NCBI GenBank assembly: GCA_902595815.1
Contig: CACJRL010000001.1
Location: 124,001 to 188,000 of the forward strand
Reading direction: 5' to 3'
Source: an uncultured Pelagibacteraceae bacterium
GTDB lineage: Bacteria > Pseudomonadota > Alphaproteobacteria > Pelagibacterales > Pelagibacteraceae
Length of the DNA stretch: 64,000 nucleotides
The translations under genes and the position numbers were made by a program. The notes beneath the pieces were generated by a model. The model worked only from the letters and a program-made list of their open reading frames with translations. It was not told where the DNA came from and made no database searches. Positions 20,857-40,797 of the stretch are shown here, in pieces (the stretch's first letter is position 1; each line of letters begins with the position of its first letter).

Positions 20857-21276
20857 ATGTTGGAAACTATTGAAGAAAAATGTCAAAAAAATGGAGTCAA
20901 ACTCACAGATCAAAGAAGGATAATTGCTAGAGTAATATCTGAATCTAAAAAAACGTATGGAGAGTCTGACCACCCGGATGTTGATGAATTATATAATAGA
21001 GTTTCTCAAATAGATTCTAAAATTAGCATTGCTACAGTTTATAGAACCGTTAAGCTTTTTGAAGAAGCGGGTATATTAACAAAGCATGATTTTAAATCTG
21101 GAAAGGCGAGATATGAATTAAATGATGATCATAATCATTTAATTGATATAAAAACTGGAGAAATAATAGAATTTGTTGACGAAGAGATTGAAGAATTACA
21201 AAAAAAAATCGCTGATAAGTACGGCTATAAGCTCGTTGATCATAAATTAGAGCTATACGGAATCAAAAAAAAGTAA
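20857..21276 (+). CDS. fur: Fur family transcriptional regulator
   Basis: A 139-residue protein. The winged helix includes KLTDQRRIIARVI, ISIATVYRTVKLFEEAGIL (recognition helix) and KARYEL. The regulatory part has DDHNHLIDIKTGEIIEF with His ligands, but none of the CXXC pairs of a structural zinc site, a pattern common in alphaproteobacterial Fur/Mur. It senses Fe2+ or Mn2+ and represses uptake genes. Fur-box-like sites elsewhere in the window (40467-40485 and 40528-40575) are candidate targets. miaB begins four bases after its stop. Confidence 0.93.
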   Translation: MLETIEEKCQKNGVKLTDQRRIIARVISESKKTYGESDHPDVDELYNRVSQIDSKISIATVYRTVKLFEEAGILTKHDFKSGKARYELNDDHNHLIDIKTGEIIEFVDEEIEELQKKIADKYGYKLVDHKLELYGIKKK

Positions 21277-35076: not shown

Positions 35077-36288
35077 CTAAACTTTCTCAAACACTAATGT
35101 TGCATTAGTTCCACCAAAACCAAAGCTGTTAGACATAATTGCATTTAGTTTTACGTTTTTTTCAACTTGTGTAACAATTGGATAGTTCTTAGCTTCATCA
35201 TCCATTTCTGAAATATTTGCTGATGCTGAAATAAAATTGTTTTTCATCATTATCAAACTGTAAATTGCTTCGTGAACTGAAGTTGCGCCTAATGAATGGC
35301 CCGACAAAGATTTTGTTGAACTTATCTTAGGTTTATATTCTGGGAAAGCTTCACCAACTGCTTTTAATTCTGTAATATCTCCCACAGGTGTTGATGTCCC
35401 GTGAGTATTAATATAGTCAATTTTATTTTTTGAGGTTGCTAGAGCCATTTTCATACATCTCACCGCTCCCTCACCAGATGGTGCAACCATATCATAGCCA
35501 TCTGATGTTGCTCCATATCCAGTTAATTCTGCATATATTTTAGCACCTCTTGCTTTGGCATGTTCGTACTCTTCTAAGACAAGAACTCCACCTCCACCAG
35601 CAATTACAAAACCATCTCTTGTTTTATCATATGGTCTTGAGGCTTTTTCAGGGGTATCGTTATATTTTGATGATAGCGCAGTCATTGCATCAAACATTGC
35701 AGTCATTGCAAAATGAACCTCATCACTACCACCTGCAAAAATAATATTTTGTTTTCCTAATTGAATAAGCTCCATTGCATTACCAATACAATGACCACTC
35801 GTTGCGCATGCAGAACTTATTGTGTAATTAGTGCCTTTTATTTTAAATGGAACTGCTAGAGTGGCAGAAGCAGTACTTGCCATTGTTCTTGGAACTATAA
35901 ATGGACCCATTTTTTTTGGATTTTTTTCTCTAGTCTTATCTGATGCTAATATCACATTTTCAATTGATGGTCCTCCTGATCCCATTACCATCCCAGTTGA
36001 AATATTACTAACTTCATTCTCCTCTAATCCGGAGTCTTTAACTGCCTCACTCATAGCAACATAATTATATGCTGATCCAGCACCCATAAATCGAATAACT
36101 TTTCTATCAATGTAATCCTCTAACTTGATATTAGGTTTACCATGAACATGACTCTTTAAATTATGTTCTTTGTATTCCTCAGAAAATGTTATTCCTGATT
36201 TTGTATTAACTAACGATTGATAAACTTCATCTTGATTATTTCCCAAACATGAAACTACACCAAGTCCTGTTACAACTACTCTTTTCAT
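35077..36288 (-). CDS. fabB: 3-oxoacyl-[acyl-carrier-protein] synthase I
   Basis: A 403-residue thiolase-fold condensing enzyme with the Cys-His-His triad: nucleophile in [11 protein letters not shown], His in [12 protein letters not shown] and His in [11 protein letters not shown]. The end [15 protein letters not shown] is characteristic. It elongates unsaturated acyl chains made by FabA. The start overlaps the fabA stop by one base. Confidence 0.97.
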
Positions 36289-36788
36289 TATTTAAATAAT
36301 CCTACCTTAAGATTTTCTGCACTATAAATCTTTTTTCCATCAGCAAGCAATATTCCATTTGCAAGACCTACAGTTGTTTCTCCTTTAACAAGAATTCTTT
36401 TCATATCTATTTCATATGTTGCCATTTTGACATTTTTAAGAACTTCCCCAGTGAATTTTACTGTGCTTACACCTAATGCCCTACCTCTTCCTGGATTCCC
36501 AAGCCAACCAAGAAAAAAGCCGACTAGTTGCCACATAGCATCTAAACCAAGACAACCTGGCATTACTGGATCTTCTCTAAAATGACAATCAAAGAACCAT
36601 AAATTATCTTTAATATCAAGTTCGGCTTTCATAGATCCTTTTTTATAAAAACCCTCACTCTCAGTTATTTCTGTAATTCTATCAAACATTAGCATTGGTG
36701 GAGAAGGTAATTTTGCATTCCCTGGACCAAATAACTTACCATTAGCGCAATCAATTAGTTCGTTGTAATTAAAGGAACTTTTTTTCAT
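36288..36788 (-). CDS. fabA: 3-hydroxydecanoyl-[acyl-carrier-protein] dehydratase/isomerase
   Basis: A 166-residue hot-dog-fold enzyme. The active-site His lies in [24 protein letters not shown], with [16 protein letters not shown] downstream. FabA makes the cis-3-decenoyl branch point for unsaturated fatty acids in the anaerobic pathway. It leads the fabA-fabB-fabI run and is divergent from the irr-like gene with 73 bases between starts. This irr/fabA neighbourhood recurs in Alphaproteobacteria. Confidence 0.97.
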
Positions 36789-36822: not shown

Positions 36823-36855
36823 TATAATATACAAATAGTTTAGAATAGTTTTAAA
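36823..36855 (+). promoter_or_regulatory. irr-like gene promoter -10 and ICE-like (Irr box) operator
   Basis: A perfect -10 TATAAT lies at 36823-36828. Eleven bases on is TTTAGAATAGTTTTAAA (36839-36855), which differs in one base from the inverted repeat TTTAGAA-N3-TTCTAAA known as the iron control element bound by Irr. It sits around the expected transcription start, six bases before the ATG, so it fits autoregulation by repression. The -35 is weak. Confidence 0.6.
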
Positions 36856-36861
36856 TTGCTA

Positions 36862-37272
36862 ATGACTAGTAAACAAGAATTTATTGAAAAACTAAGGAAC
36901 TCTAGCTTAAGACCAACTAAACAAAGAATAAATATATGTGAGGTTTTATTCAATAGAGATAAAACTTTCCACTTCACAATAAACGACTTATTCAACTTAA
37001 TTAAAGATAAAACGGGTGAAAAAGTTTCTTTAGCAACTGTTTACAATACAGTCCATGCATTTCTTAAAAAAGGATATCTAAAAGAGATACCAATTAATTC
37101 TAATCAAACTTACTTTGATACAAATGTCACAGATCATCACCATTTCTTCGATGTTAAAGAAGAAAAGCTTATTGATATTAAAAATGAGGATGTAGGACCG
37201 ATAGAGATTCAAAAATCTATACCTGGAAAAAAAATTAAATCAGTCGAAGTTTTAGTAAAATTAGAAGACTAG
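36862..37272 (+). CDS. irr: Fur-superfamily regulator, Irr/PerR type
   Basis: 136 residues. Winged helix: LRNSSLRPTKQRINICEVLF, then VSLATVYNTVHAFLKKGYL. The metal/haem region has FDTNVTDHHHFFDVKEEKL, containing the His cluster (DHHHFF) typical of Irr, and no CXXC zinc pairs. Irr proteins in Alphaproteobacteria repress iron-dependent genes when iron and haem are low; the group is related to PerR. I chose the ATG at 36862; a TTG six bases upstream is possible. It lies directly upstream of katG (107 bases) and its operator matches those of katG. Confidence 0.88.
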   Translation: MTSKQEFIEKLRNSSLRPTKQRINICEVLFNRDKTFHFTINDLFNLIKDKTGEKVSLATVYNTVHAFLKKGYLKEIPINSNQTYFDTNVTDHHHFFDVKEEKLIDIKNEDVGPIEIQKSIPGKKIKSVEVLVKLED

Positions 37273-37306
37273 GTTTTCAAAATTACATCATAAATATTCT
37301 GACTTA

Positions 37307-37335
37307 TTGACAATCTTCTTTAGAATAATTATAAA
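37307..37335 (+). promoter_or_regulatory. strong katG promoter
   Basis: TTGACA (37307-37312) and TATAAA (37330-37335) are separated by exactly 17 bases, the best promoter match seen in this window. A second TATAAT occurs at 37353-37358. An AAGGAG ribosome site (37363-37368) lies ten bases before the katG ATG. Confidence 0.7.
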
Positions 37336-37358
37336 CAAGGAATTAGAATAATTATAAT
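37319..37358 (+). promoter_or_regulatory. tandem Irr/PerR-box-like operators at katG
   Basis: Two 17-base boxes: TTTAGAATAATTATAAA (37319-37335) and ATTAGAATAATTATAAT (37342-37358). They share the 15-mer TTAGAATAATTATAA and start 23 bases apart. The 15-mer matches the 7-1-7 PerR box TTATAAT-N-ATTATAA at 14 of 15 positions, and the first box matches the Irr iron control element at all but one defined base. The first overlaps the promoter -10, the second the likely start site, as expected for repression. Confidence 0.65.
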
Positions 37359-37378: not shown

Positions 37379-39616
37379 ATGAGTGCGGAATTTCATAAAA
37401 GTAAATCATTTAAATCAGCAGAATTAAGTAAGTGCCCATTTACAGGTGCAGGTACACCGGCAAAATTTAGTGCTGGAAGAGGACAAACAAACAGAGATTT
37501 TTGGCCAAACAGTTTGAATTTGAAAATTTTAAGTCAGCACTCGAATTTATCAAATCCAATGGAGAAAAAATTTAATTATTCTAAAGAATTTAAAAAACTA
37601 AATTACAAAGCACTCAAAAAAGATTTAAACAAATTAATGACAGACTCACAAGATTGGTGGCCAGCAGATTACGGTCATTATGGTCCTTTATTTATTAGAT
37701 TAGCATGGCACGCAGCAGGCACATATAGAACTGGTGATGGTAGAGGGGGAGCCGGAACAGGCAATCAAAGGTTTGCACCGTTAAATGCCTGGCCTGATAA
37801 TGTTAATCTAGATAAAGCTAGATTACTTTTGTGGCCAATAAAACAGAAATATGGAAAAAGAATTTCTTGGGCAGATTTATTTATACTAGTCGGAAATGTA
37901 GCATTAGAGTCAATGGGCTTTAAAACTTTCGGTTTCGGAGCGGGAAGAACTGATATCTGGGAACCAGAAGACGATATTTACTGGGGTTCAGAAAAAGAAA
38001 TGTTAGGTGTAAAGAGATACAGCGGAAAAAGAGATCTTGAGCAACCATTGGGGGCTTCTCACATGGGATTAATTTATGTAAATCCACAAGGTCCAGATTT
38101 TAATCCAGACCCATTGAAAGCAGCTCATGATATTAGAGAAACATTTGGACGAATGGCAATGAATGATTATGAAACAGTTGCATTAGTTGCTGGTGGTCAT
38201 ACTTTTGGAAAATCTCATGGTGCTGCACCTGAATCGCATAAAGGACCTGATCCAGAAGCATCAAGAATTCAAGATCAGGCAACCGGTTGGAATAGTAATT
38301 ACAAATCAGGAAAAGGTGTACATGCAATTAGTAGTGGTATTGAAGGAGCATGGACACAAACACCAACACAATGGGATATGGGTTATTTTGATTGTTTATT
38401 TAACCATGAATGGGAATTGACAAAAGGACCTGCTGGGGCATTTCAATGGACTCCAAAAAAGAATGGTCAGAGAATTAAAATGGTTCCTGATGCTCATGAT
38501 AAAAGTAAAATGCATCCTCCAATGATGCAAACAACTGATTTATCTTTGAGAATGGATAAAAGTTATGGACCAATTTCAAAACATTTTTATCAAAATCCAG
38601 ATGAATTTGCTGATGCATTTGCAAGAGCTTGGTTTAAGCTTACTCATAGAGACATGGGACCAAGAGCATGTTATTTGGGTAGCGAAGTACCAAAAGAACA
38701 ATTAATTTGGCAAGATCCTATAGATAAACCAAAATATAAACTTAAATCAAAAGATATAAGAGATTTAAAATCAAAGCTTTCAAAATCAAAAATCTCTGTT
38801 TCTGATTTAGTTTCTACGGCTTGGGCTTCTGCTTCTACATATAGAGGTTCTGACAAAAGAGGTGGAGCAAACGGAGCAAGAATTATGCTTGAGCCTCAAA
38901 GAAGTTGGAAAGTCAATAATCCTAAAAAACTTTCAAAGGTTATTAAAGCTTTACAAAAAATTAAGAAAAAATTTGATACAAATAAAAAATCAGTCTCAAT
39001 GGCGGATCTTATAGTATTAGGTGGAAATGTAGGAATAGAGATGGCAGCAAAAAAAGCTGGTCATAAAATTCAGGTTCCATTTACTGCTGGAAGAGGAGAT
39101 GCAAGACAAGACCAAACAGATGTAAATTCATTTGGATTACTTGAGCCGCAAGCAGATGGTTTTAGAAACTACATGAAAAAAGGTAAATCTAATGTTTCAG
39201 CTGAGGAAAAATTAATTGATAAGGCACAATTAATGGGATTAACGGCACCAGAGATGACAGTTCTTGTAGGAGGAATGAGAGTTTTAGATACAAACTATGA
39301 CAGTTCTAAAAATGGAGTTTTCACAAAAAAACCTGGAACGCTATCAACAGATTATTTTGTAAATCTTCTCGATATGAGCACTACTTGGAAAGAAACTGAT
39401 AAATCTGAACAATATTTTGTTGGTAAAGATAGAAAGTCAAAAAAAGCCAAGTGGAAAGGTTCAAGAGTTGACCTTATTTTTGGCTCTAATTCTCAATTAA
39501 GAGCATTAGCCGAAGTCTATGCTTGCAAAGATTCATCAGACAAATTTATCAAAGACTTTGTATCCGCATGGGTCAAAGTGATGAATGCAGATAGATTTGA
39601 TTTAAGATTAAACTAG
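37379..39616 (+). CDS. katG: bifunctional catalase-peroxidase
   Basis: A 745-residue haem enzyme with two peroxidase-like halves. The distal pocket reads [20 protein letters not shown] (Arg, Trp, His), the Tyr of the Met-Tyr-Trp adduct lies in [14 protein letters not shown] and its Met in [10 protein letters not shown]. The proximal haem His is in [15 protein letters not shown]. The inactive C-terminal half contains [20 protein letters not shown]. It removes hydrogen peroxide in the cytoplasm. A strong promoter overlaps two operator-like repeats just downstream of an Irr/PerR-type gene, pointing to peroxide or iron control. Confidence 0.99.
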
Positions 39617-39635: not shown

Positions 39636-40232
39636 ATGACATCACTATCGTTCGAAGACTTTTATAAAGTTCCTGAAATTAAGTTTGATATAAATAGATT
39701 GCGAAATGATTTAAATCTAATTTTAGAGAAAAAGAAATTTAATTCGCCAGGTGTTACGCACTTTGGTGCAATTCCTTTAAATCAAATTCCAAATAACAAA
39801 GACTCTATAGAAGGTAACAATATCAGAGGTAGATATTGGACTATTGCAGATGAGACAGGTAAAGAAGTCTCAAGAGATATTGATATTGATGAATCGAAAT
39901 ATACTCAGTTGTTACCAGAGTTCGATAAAACTTATTTTAAAGAGGTTTATGAAATTCTTAGTAAAAAATTTAAACTAGGAAGAGTAAGGCTTTTATTAAA
40001 AGAGCCAAGATCAACGCTAAGCTGGCACAAAGATCCAGAGTGTAGATTGCATATTCCGATAGTAACTAATGCAGGCTGTTCAATGGTCATTGAAAATGTT
40101 GCAAAACATTTGCCTGCAGATGGACATGTATGGATTACTAACAATACAAAGTATCATAACTTTTTTAATGGAGGAGAACAGGCTAGAGTTCACTTAGTTG
40201 CTTGTGTTCTTGAAAGCCCGTTTAAAGAATAA
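39636..40232 (+). CDS. aspartyl/asparaginyl beta-hydroxylase-like 2-oxoglutarate oxygenase
   Basis: A 198-residue double-stranded beta-helix protein. The iron ligands appear as LSWHKDPECRLHIPIVTN (His-X-Asp) and YHNFFNGGEQARVHLVACV (distal His with the 2-oxoglutarate Arg). These match the aspartyl/asparaginyl hydroxylase family. The target protein or small molecule is unknown. It begins 20 bases after katG with an AAGGAAAG site, so it is probably part of the katG transcript and may share its iron or peroxide control. Confidence 0.78.
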   Translation: MTSLSFEDFYKVPEIKFDINRLRNDLNLILEKKKFNSPGVTHFGAIPLNQIPNNKDSIEGNNIRGRYWTIADETGKEVSRDIDIDESKYTQLLPEFDKTYFKEVYEILSKKFKLGRVRLLLKEPRSTLSWHKDPECRLHIPIVTNAGCSMVIENVAKHLPADGHVWITNNTKYHNFFNGGEQARVHLVACVLESPFKE

Positions 40233-40474
40233 TGGAAGTTACCAACGGTATTTTTAAAGCTGCCGGTCAGATTTATTCCAATAACAGAGGCTCTATTTTA
40301 AGAACAATTGTCTATACAGTTGGTCATTTTGCAATTGCTATAACTGTTTTGATGTTAGTTGCTGATGTATCTTTTATGATAGCTTTGACCGATGCAATTG
40401 TAGAACCAATTGCTAATTCTATTTGGTATTTCATTTTAGATAAGTGGTGGGCAAGTAGATCAAAAAGTAAATAA
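40232..40474 (+). CDS. DUF2061-family small membrane protein
   Basis: 80 residues with two transmembrane helices (ILRTIVYTVGHFAIAITVLMLV and IALTDAIVEPIANSIWYFIL) ending in a basic WWASRSKSK tail. The pattern RTIVYTVGHF followed by DAIVEPIANSIWYFILDKWW resembles DUF2061 proteins, in which helix two ends with a similar aromatic-basic motif. The function is unknown. The start overlaps the preceding hydroxylase stop (TAATG), so the two are coupled. Confidence 0.72.
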   Translation: MEVTNGIFKAAGQIYSNNRGSILRTIVYTVGHFAIAITVLMLVADVSFMIALTDAIVEPIANSIWYFILDKWWASRSKSK

Positions 40475-40485: not shown

Positions 40486-40527
40486 AATAAGTATTTAAGA
40501 AAAATTTAATAAGGATAATTTGTAGTA

Positions 40528-40575
40528 ATAATAATTATTCGCAAAAAAAATGTGTAAATAATAATTATTCGCAAG
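40528..40575. repeat. tandem 18-bp direct repeat with palindromic core, period 30 bp
   Basis: AATAATAATTATTCGCAA occurs at 40528-40545 and again, identically, at 40558-40575. Each contains the perfect palindrome AATAATTATT, and each matches a Fur 7-1-7 box at about 12 of 15 positions. The 30-base period is close to three helical turns. The two copies end 42 bases before the Cys-rich gene, so they look like operators for it. Confidence 0.6.
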
Positions 40576-40617: not shown

Positions 40618-40797
40618 ATGCAAATAGAAAATTACAATTGTAAAAAATGTGGATTAACAATTTCTTCAACTTGTTCTAAGTGTGATAAAATAGTTGATGT
40701 TGAAGTCCTTGATGATGGATGTATTGTTCAAAAGACTAAATGTGTTGATTGTGCGAATGCTCCAGTGATCAAAGACGTATGTGTCCAACAAAAATAA
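40618..40797 (+). CDS. Cys-rich putative metal-binding microprotein, 59 aa
   Basis: A 59-codon frame starting ATG. It contains eight Cys: a CKKCG knuckle (8, 11), TCSKC (19, 22), Cys34, CVDC (42, 45) and Cys54. The first two pairs are spaced like a zinc ribbon; the second half could hold another site. No homologue is recognised. Its upstream region carries a Fur-box-like site and tandem repeats, suggesting metal-dependent control. It follows the katG-hydroxylase-DUF2061 genes on the same strand and converges on the SH3-like gene. Confidence 0.72.
   Translation: MQIENYNCKKCGLTISSTCSKCDKIVDVEVLDDGCIVQKTKCVDCANAPVIKDVCVQQK

Follow-up and report, generated by a model that had tools for sequence, protein, structure and literature searches.

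Organization of the irr-katG locus

The window analysed here is a stretch of 64,000 nucleotides (64 kb) from an uncultured SAR11 bacterium of the family Pelagibacteraceae, in which a gene for a Fur-superfamily protein lies between fabA and the catalase-peroxidase gene katG. The genes and the candidate promoter and operator elements around them are as follows.

36288-36788, minus strand: fabA, divergent neighbour of irr, given as context and no proposed target
36823-36828, plus strand: putative irr promoter -10, TATAAT; TATAATATA retained, by eye, in most aligned upstream gaps
36839-36855, plus strand: Irr box at irr, TTTAGAATAGTTTTAAA, just past the -10; proposed autoregulatory operator, read directly and conserved in SAR11
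36862-37272, plus strand: irr-like gene (Fur superfamily, Irr type), probable regulator (Pfam FUR, E=1.5e-19; NCBIfam IrrA, 9e-38)
37287-37303, minus strand: possible degenerate remnant of an upstream box (match at 37288-37302 with 3 mismatches, which is chance level)
37307-37312, plus strand: putative katG promoter -35, TTGACA; TTGAC at the same place in most relatives
37319-37335, plus strand: katG Irr box 1, TTTAGAATAATTATAAA, which includes the -10 TATAAA (37330-37335); read directly and conserved
37342-37358, plus strand: katG Irr box 2, ATTAGAATAATTATAAT, a tandem copy on the predicted transcription start; read directly
37379-39616, plus strand: katG (catalase-peroxidase), proposed target (Pfam peroxidase, E=6.1e-70; TIGR00198, 1137.6 bits, above cut-off)

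A sequence-only reading of this DNA had described three near-identical boxes at irr and katG, two of them sharing a 15-mer, and had placed them over the -10 and start regions. Direct inspection agrees on each point. The three boxes stand at the same coordinates, the 15-mer TTAGAATAATTATAA occurs exactly at both katG boxes and nowhere else in the 64 kb, the TATAAA of katG lies inside box 1 at the end of a 17-base spacer from the -35, box 2 falls on the predicted start, and the irr box follows TATAAT. The reported distances of one base from the iron control element (ICE) of Irr and from the PerR 7-1-7 consensus are right.

The window by itself is weak evidence for an operator, because loose matches to the 15-mer occur in it at chance frequency (35 matches with ≤3 mismatches in this AT-rich sequence against a mean of 34 in shuffles, without enrichment), and it is conservation that decides. 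Placement of the irr and katG promoters likewise follows from conservation rather than from an automatic promoter scan of the window. The scan, whose rule needs a final T in the -10, listed neither of them, and the three other promoters that it did list compare with 4.2 in shuffles.

Past katG come an Asp/Arg-hydroxylase-like gene and a DUF2061 gene (window 39636-40474). Farther on, by eye, two copies of AATAATAATTATTCGCAA lie 30 bases apart (40527-40544 and 40557-40574), preceded by a Fur-like AATCATTATCAATAA (~40476) and followed by a small cysteine-rich ORF (~40618-40797).

The probable regulator beside katG

The protein encoded next to katG had been read as an Irr-type regulator, and its NCBIfam ranking bears this out: IrrA (129.3 bits) and Irr (120.1) come first and PerRB next (64.3), with both Irr scores below the curated cut-offs (150 and 170), so that the protein is of Irr type by rank and not by cut-off. 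Fur models reach at most 35 bits on it against 129 for IrrA, and so are not the closest to its sequence. Its predicted structure is a Fur fold (pLDDT 79) with the Leptospira PerR 5nl9 as top match (Z 12.6, 127 residues aligned, rmsd 5.0) and several Fur structures within 1 Z of 5nl9, and its best PDB sequence matches are PerR of Leptospira (5nl9) and of B. subtilis (2fe3).

The protein has an HHH motif, and the HxH residues H92 and H94 are present in every SAR11 Irr row (112 rows, 107 of them distinct and some sharing a genome). HxH is described in a review as the haem-binding motif of Irr (PMC7762939). The Cys-Pro haem regulatory motif of the B. japonicum kind occurs in 0/112 SAR11 rows and 0/27 other Irr rows of the class; according to the review, only some Irr have one (PMC7762939), and the motif is not defining. 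A structural Zn Cys4 site (CxxC) was likewise found in 0/112 and 0/27 rows. Alignment to 2fe3 sets H37, D86, H92, H94 and D105 of the SAR11 protein opposite the regulatory ligands of PerR, His37, Asp85, His91, His93 and Asp104. All five are invariant in the 112 SAR11 rows and in the 27 other Irr rows, and in the Fur paralogue of the window genome (Fur/Mur type, window 20857-21276) both position 86 and position 105 are occupied by Glu. In PerR itself, H37 and H91 are reported to undergo oxidation (PMC8115020).

Conservation and promoter architecture of the box in SAR11

Conservation was scored as the best match to TTTAGAATNATTATAA on either strand of a gap, with shuffled gaps as control, at the best 80 of 595 relatives, all of them SAR11 close to the query and not a random sample. 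The fabA and irr genes were both found at 79 of the 80 loci; L299, where fabA is absent, was dropped from both counts, and L293 and L316, in which no next gene was identified, were left out of the downstream count. A box with ≤2 mismatches lies upstream of irr in 74/79 loci, against 2.1% of shuffled gaps, and between irr and the next gene in 75/77, against 1.9%. Inspection of L270 and L290 found the downstream box there as well, which brings that count to 77/77. Boxes without a mismatch occur in 47 irr-upstream and 49 downstream gaps, whereas no shuffled gap has one (1580 and 1540 shuffles, respectively). The sequence-only reading had named as the result that would speak against it a box no commoner than expected ahead of the irr and katG orthologues of further SAR11 genomes; these counts show strong enrichment.

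The gene after irr is katG in 43 of the 79 loci and rubrerythrin (rbr) in 34, and in the other 2 no next gene was identified. Five loci (L270, L285, L287, L290 and L293) have lost the irr box or have a poor one; all of them retain the box after irr, and control of the neighbour appears to be more strongly kept than autoregulation. An initial set comprised 30 irr loci. In 29 of them, all but L022, fabA adjoins irr, and 23 have the irr box with ≤2 mismatches; it is absent from L023-L025 and from four loci of a second SAR11 family, L027-L030.

Position within the promoter differs between the two neighbours. Box 1 of katG spans the spacer and the -10 (consensus TTTAGAATNATTATAAA, 43 sites from 44 loci), and 20 of the 43 katG promoters with box 1 have an additional box immediately 5' of the -35. 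Each of the 34 rbr promoters has its best-kept box at the upstream position on the -35 side and reversed, ATTATAaTaATTCTAAA, and 9 of the 34 have a -10 box too (thresholds of ≤3 mismatches at the -10 and ≤4 upstream). The lineage of the window has at most a degenerate upstream copy (37287-37303), in a position that holds an inverted box in other SAR11 such as L271 and L307, and a second copy at the start point, which is also present in L238 and L282.

The SAR11 box is asymmetrical, with TTATAA as its right half-site, and this half-site includes the -10 at katG. It could be argued that the boxes are plain AT-rich promoter sequence, that is, -10 elements and no operator, as would also fit the lack of enrichment at ≤3 mismatches in the window. 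The simple form of this argument, in which TTATAA is merely the -10, was partly rejected, since the half-site recurs in boxes that lie off the -10, both at irr and 5' of the -35. Moreover, the box after irr is kept in 77/77 loci against ~2% in shuffles, and its symmetrical form (see below) is conspicuous in genomes of 50-70% GC. We give this explanation next to no chance of being correct.

The box outside SAR11

A search of the class for Irr gave matches in 228/288 genomes, many of which may be Fur paralogues. Among the 27 best-scoring non-SAR11 matches (L320-L346, not a random sample of the 228 genomes), rubrerythrin adjoins irr in 21 and katG in one (L338). Of these 22 irr-rbr or irr-katG gaps, 19 contain the sequence TTTAGAANNNTTCTAAA, of the symmetrical form TTTAGAA-N3-TTCTAAA, with ≤3 mismatches, and only 0-2 of 200 shuffles are equally good. 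A count by eye finds TTGAC no more than a few bases past the best box in 11 of the 19. The ICE is absent from L321, L323 and L346, in which rbr adjoins irr. Loci without a rbr or katG neighbour have the symmetrical form beyond chance in 0/5 cases; L341 reaches 3 mismatches, as do 52 of 200 shuffles. The split between 19/22 with such a neighbour and 0/5 without one identifies the box as the Irr box or ICE, and the irr-rbr pair is probably ancestral. The asymmetrical SAR11 form reads as a variant of the ICE. Upstream of irr itself, a convincing box was not seen in the non-SAR11 loci (at least 3 mismatches at best, within 150 bases), and for this reason the self-control of irr seems to be derived. 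Taken together, the results suggest that Irr has long been linked with peroxide scavenging in the class.

Exchange of katG and rubrerythrin beside irr

Among 61 SAR11 genomes, rbr is present in 29 and KatG in 19, and never both in one genome. The rbr gene adjoins irr in 28 of the 29, with the contig ending at this point in the other (G060), and katG adjoins irr in 18 of the 19, with irr a broken fragment in G025; the katG that lies apart is that of G050. A tree of Irr, which has few columns and excludes rows with stops, rows <110 residues and identical rows, gives a minimum of 6 changes between katG and rbr in the slot, 3 of them forced by well-supported branches. We infer that the exchange ran from rbr to katG: the irr-rbr pair is probably ancestral, and katG probably replaced rbr in the same slot several times. 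In a single case (G050, L064), a katG gene that lies apart from irr keeps the box ~57 bases before its start.

Neither gene is found in 13 of the 61 genomes. A search for fabA in 12 of these (all except G019) gave only a fragment for G013, a weak match for G017 and nothing for the other 10. Since fabA is also missing in 10/12, the irr locus is probably unassembled there, and these genomes do not make up a series of joint losses.

The complete, single-contig genome G148 has no Irr-grade match, its sole match (E 9e-14) being of Fur-paralogue strength, and looks truly Irr-less, alone among the genomes checked; no rubrerythrin was found in it. By eye, irr, katG and the two genes that follow katG (the Asp/Arg-hydroxylase-like and DUF2061 genes) are missing between fabA and the SH3-moeB-dut-like genes. 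The katG gene of G148 (L353) is elsewhere, behind an iron-permease-like gene (FTR1-type by eye), and has no box directly upstream. Ahead of the permease-like gene are TTAAGAATAATTCTTAA, 2 mismatches from the symmetrical ICE, and the Fur-like TTGAGAATCATTCTCAT. This one case backs the Irr reading only if TTAAGAATAATTCTTAA is no ICE, and does so more weakly if the permease-like gene and katG are co-transcribed.

Two observations concern the same genes elsewhere. G039 and G045 each have a second, weak rubrerythrin-family match at another place in the genome. In G038, irr-katG is on a different contig from the main fabA region, which retains a palindromic ICE, TTTAGAATTATTCTAAA, ~213 bases before fabA (L070 1497-1513).

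Boxes at other genes

The local irr-katG regulon that had been proposed is supported, but the regulon is wider: rbr takes the place of katG, and boxes at peroxiredoxin genes and sfuC are seen in some relatives, though not in the window genome. Of 24 loci with the gene for a 1-Cys-type peroxiredoxin (L148-L171), 11 have a box with ≤2 mismatches ahead of it. The upstream regions of this gene in the window genome (G000, L154) and in four relatives (L151-L153 and L155) have no box (5 mismatches at best), and the peroxiredoxin was rejected as a target in the window genome. A second peroxiredoxin is preceded by a box in G042 and G056 (L068 and L069), and some relatives have one ahead of sfuC, which encodes an iron-binding protein. 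At sfuC of the second family (L208-L212), a Fur-type TTGATAATCATTCTCAATAA and an Irr-type TTATAATCATTCTAAA, or nearly so, stand in tandem, with apparent dual control by Fur and Irr.

The sfuC promoters bear on whether the boxes are instead bound by the other Fur-family protein of the window genome, the Fur/Mur-type paralogue at 20857-21276. The family binds related AT-rich palindromes, Magnetospirillum Fur is reported to regulate katG (PMC5459824), and G148 has Fur-like boxes before the gene ahead of katG. However, the Irr box differs by eye from the Fur-type boxes at sfuC, where a distinct Fur-type box is present with or without an Irr box, and across the class the box adjoins irr. We think it unlikely that the paralogue is the binding protein.

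A pattern scan of the 61 genomes gave 102 matches against 31 for a reversed control, with palindromic sites counted twice. Most off-locus sites were inspected, and many lie within genes or ahead of unrelated genes. An exact box at G000:C10:30952 (L061) is within an open reading frame; it was read as chance and rejected as an operator. Another exact box, in G050 (L062 1504), is 139 bases ahead of a gene that by eye is rhodopsin-like and is possibly due to chance.

A model for Irr control of peroxide scavenging

What is the role of the boxes at irr and katG? They are probably ICE operators through which the adjacent Irr (36862-37272) represses irr and katG, with the katG operator inherited from an irr-rbr pair. 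An operator on the -10 and start region points to repression. Irr dimers, bound over the start region at irr and over both the -10 and the start at katG, would keep RNA polymerase out; Irr would in this way restrict its own supply and keep katG low until a signal arrives; haem/iron plus peroxide would then remove Irr from the DNA and katG expression would rise. The source of the arrangement is probably the older alphaproteobacterial irr-rubrerythrin pair, in which katG took the slot of rbr and the operator was kept. A haem-requiring KatG under a haem/iron-aware repressor would suit the iron-poor ocean, and Irr appears, as the best reading, to be a self-limiting repressor of peroxide scavenging. 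An observation from Rhodobacter counts against it: Irr of R. sphaeroides is reported to leave the promoter of katE unbound (PMC3413700). So do the Irr model scores below cut-off and the irr boxes that are poor or missing in 5/79 and 7/30 loci.

The inducing signal would be either haem or a combination of iron and peroxide. One possibility, to which we assign somewhat less than an even chance, is that Irr acts in the classical manner: apo-Irr represses katG at low haem or iron, haem removes Irr, and peroxide has no direct role. Characterised Irr is described as binding DNA in the apo form and being removed or degraded with haem (review, PMC7762939), and KatG would thus be made when haem is available. 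The HHH motif, the Irr-type sequence and the identity of the box as an ICE agree with this mechanism, and KatG, as a haem enzyme, would be economical to switch off at low haem. The absence of a Cys-Pro motif from all 112 rows tells against it only so far, given that some Irr lack one (PMC7762939). Also against it is the 1.57-fold rise of rbr mRNA at low iron tabulated for Ca. P. ubique (Smith et al. 2010, PMC2864753), which counts against our best reading too because classical Irr represses at low iron. That rbr adjoins irr in Ca. P. ubique too we infer from the 28/29 genomes here. Under sulphur limitation, the values tabulated for rbr are 0.17 (mRNA) and 2.24 (protein) (PMC5069961), which favours neither mechanism.

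An alternative mechanism uses the same protein and operator in the manner of PerR. Fe2+ at H37, D86, H92, H94 and D105 would promote binding, H2O2 would oxidise a histidine ligand and release the repressor, and low iron would derepress, as the rbr transcript of Ca. P. ubique would have it (PMC2864753). Invariance of the five ligands makes such a peroxide response possible, and the Glu residues of the Fur paralogue at positions 86 and 105, the PerR structures that come first by sequence and by fold (5nl9 within 1 Z of several Fur), and the recurrent targets besides irr (katG, rbr, two peroxiredoxins and sfuC) are in keeping with it. The ligand set is, however, common to all Irr rows examined and does not single out SAR11, the structural Zn site is absent, and characterised Irr binds DNA as the apo-protein and leaves it or is degraded with haem (PMC7762939). 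We regard this mechanism as possible and hold it tentatively. Broader, and more speculative, is the idea that in SAR11 and the wider irr-rbr alphaproteobacteria Irr may be the PerR of OxyR-less organisms, an iron-loaded, peroxide-inactivated repressor of an exchangeable scavenger (rubrerythrin or KatG), joined in some lineages by peroxiredoxins and iron uptake.

Relation to known regulons

Irr, the ICE and a connection with oxidative stress have been described before (PMC3413700, PMC7762939, PMC5459824). The SAR11 system resembles the Irr/ICE regulons of rhizobia and Rhodobacter in having an Irr-type Fur protein with HHH, a palindrome on the promoter and peroxide-related targets, which in R. 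sphaeroides are listed as mbfA (rubrerythrin-like) and ccpA (PMC3413700). It differs in that the target, katG or a true rubrerythrin, directly adjoins irr, in that most irr genes of the window's family carry a box, and in the right half-site TTATAA; the proposed target is katG, whereas katE was the promoter left unbound by R. sphaeroides Irr (PMC3413700). IrrB of Magnetospirillum gryphiswaldense is another Irr protein tied to oxidative stress tolerance, yet katG of that organism is reported to be under Fur, with OxyR also named (PMC5459824, PMC12912731), unlike the Irr control proposed for SAR11. In titles and the beginnings of abstracts of the open-licence literature, we found no report of direct Irr control of katG or of katG/rubrerythrin exchange beside irr, and nothing that deals with Irr together with katG in SAR11. 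The earlier ICE reconstruction by Rodionov et al. 2006, which others cite, may already include rbr among the targets of Irr.

PerR controls itself and katA/Prx. The PerR regulons of Bacillus subtilis and Leptospira likewise have a Fur-family repressor of peroxide scavengers with the same five regulatory ligands, and an operator consensus one base from the SAR11 box. SAR11 Irr departs from PerR in lacking the Zn Cys4 site, in having Irr models as its nearest, and in an operator half, TTTAGAA, that is the ICE half.

SAR11 are the commonest bacteria of the ocean, living with few regulators in sunlit, peroxide-bearing, iron-poor water. Most offshore Pelagibacteraceae genera are reported to have katG (2025 ISME J, PMC12636525). 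With a probable regulator and its operator in hand, and katG or rubrerythrin as the exchangeable target, peroxide control in SAR11 becomes directly testable, and the box can be used in the interpretation of metatranscriptomes.

In other proteobacteria, katG and peroxiredoxin have a dedicated regulator in OxyR, a cysteine-based activator of the LysR type. No OxyR was seen among the SAR11 LysR-type proteins examined. The sole LysR-type gene found in the window genome (G000:C2:40655-42449, L234) is directly ahead of sfuC, and unlike OxyR its product is cysteine-free, as is the LysR protein of G029. The second family gave a LysR match in 0/24 genomes, and G010 and G012 possess a second LysR each.
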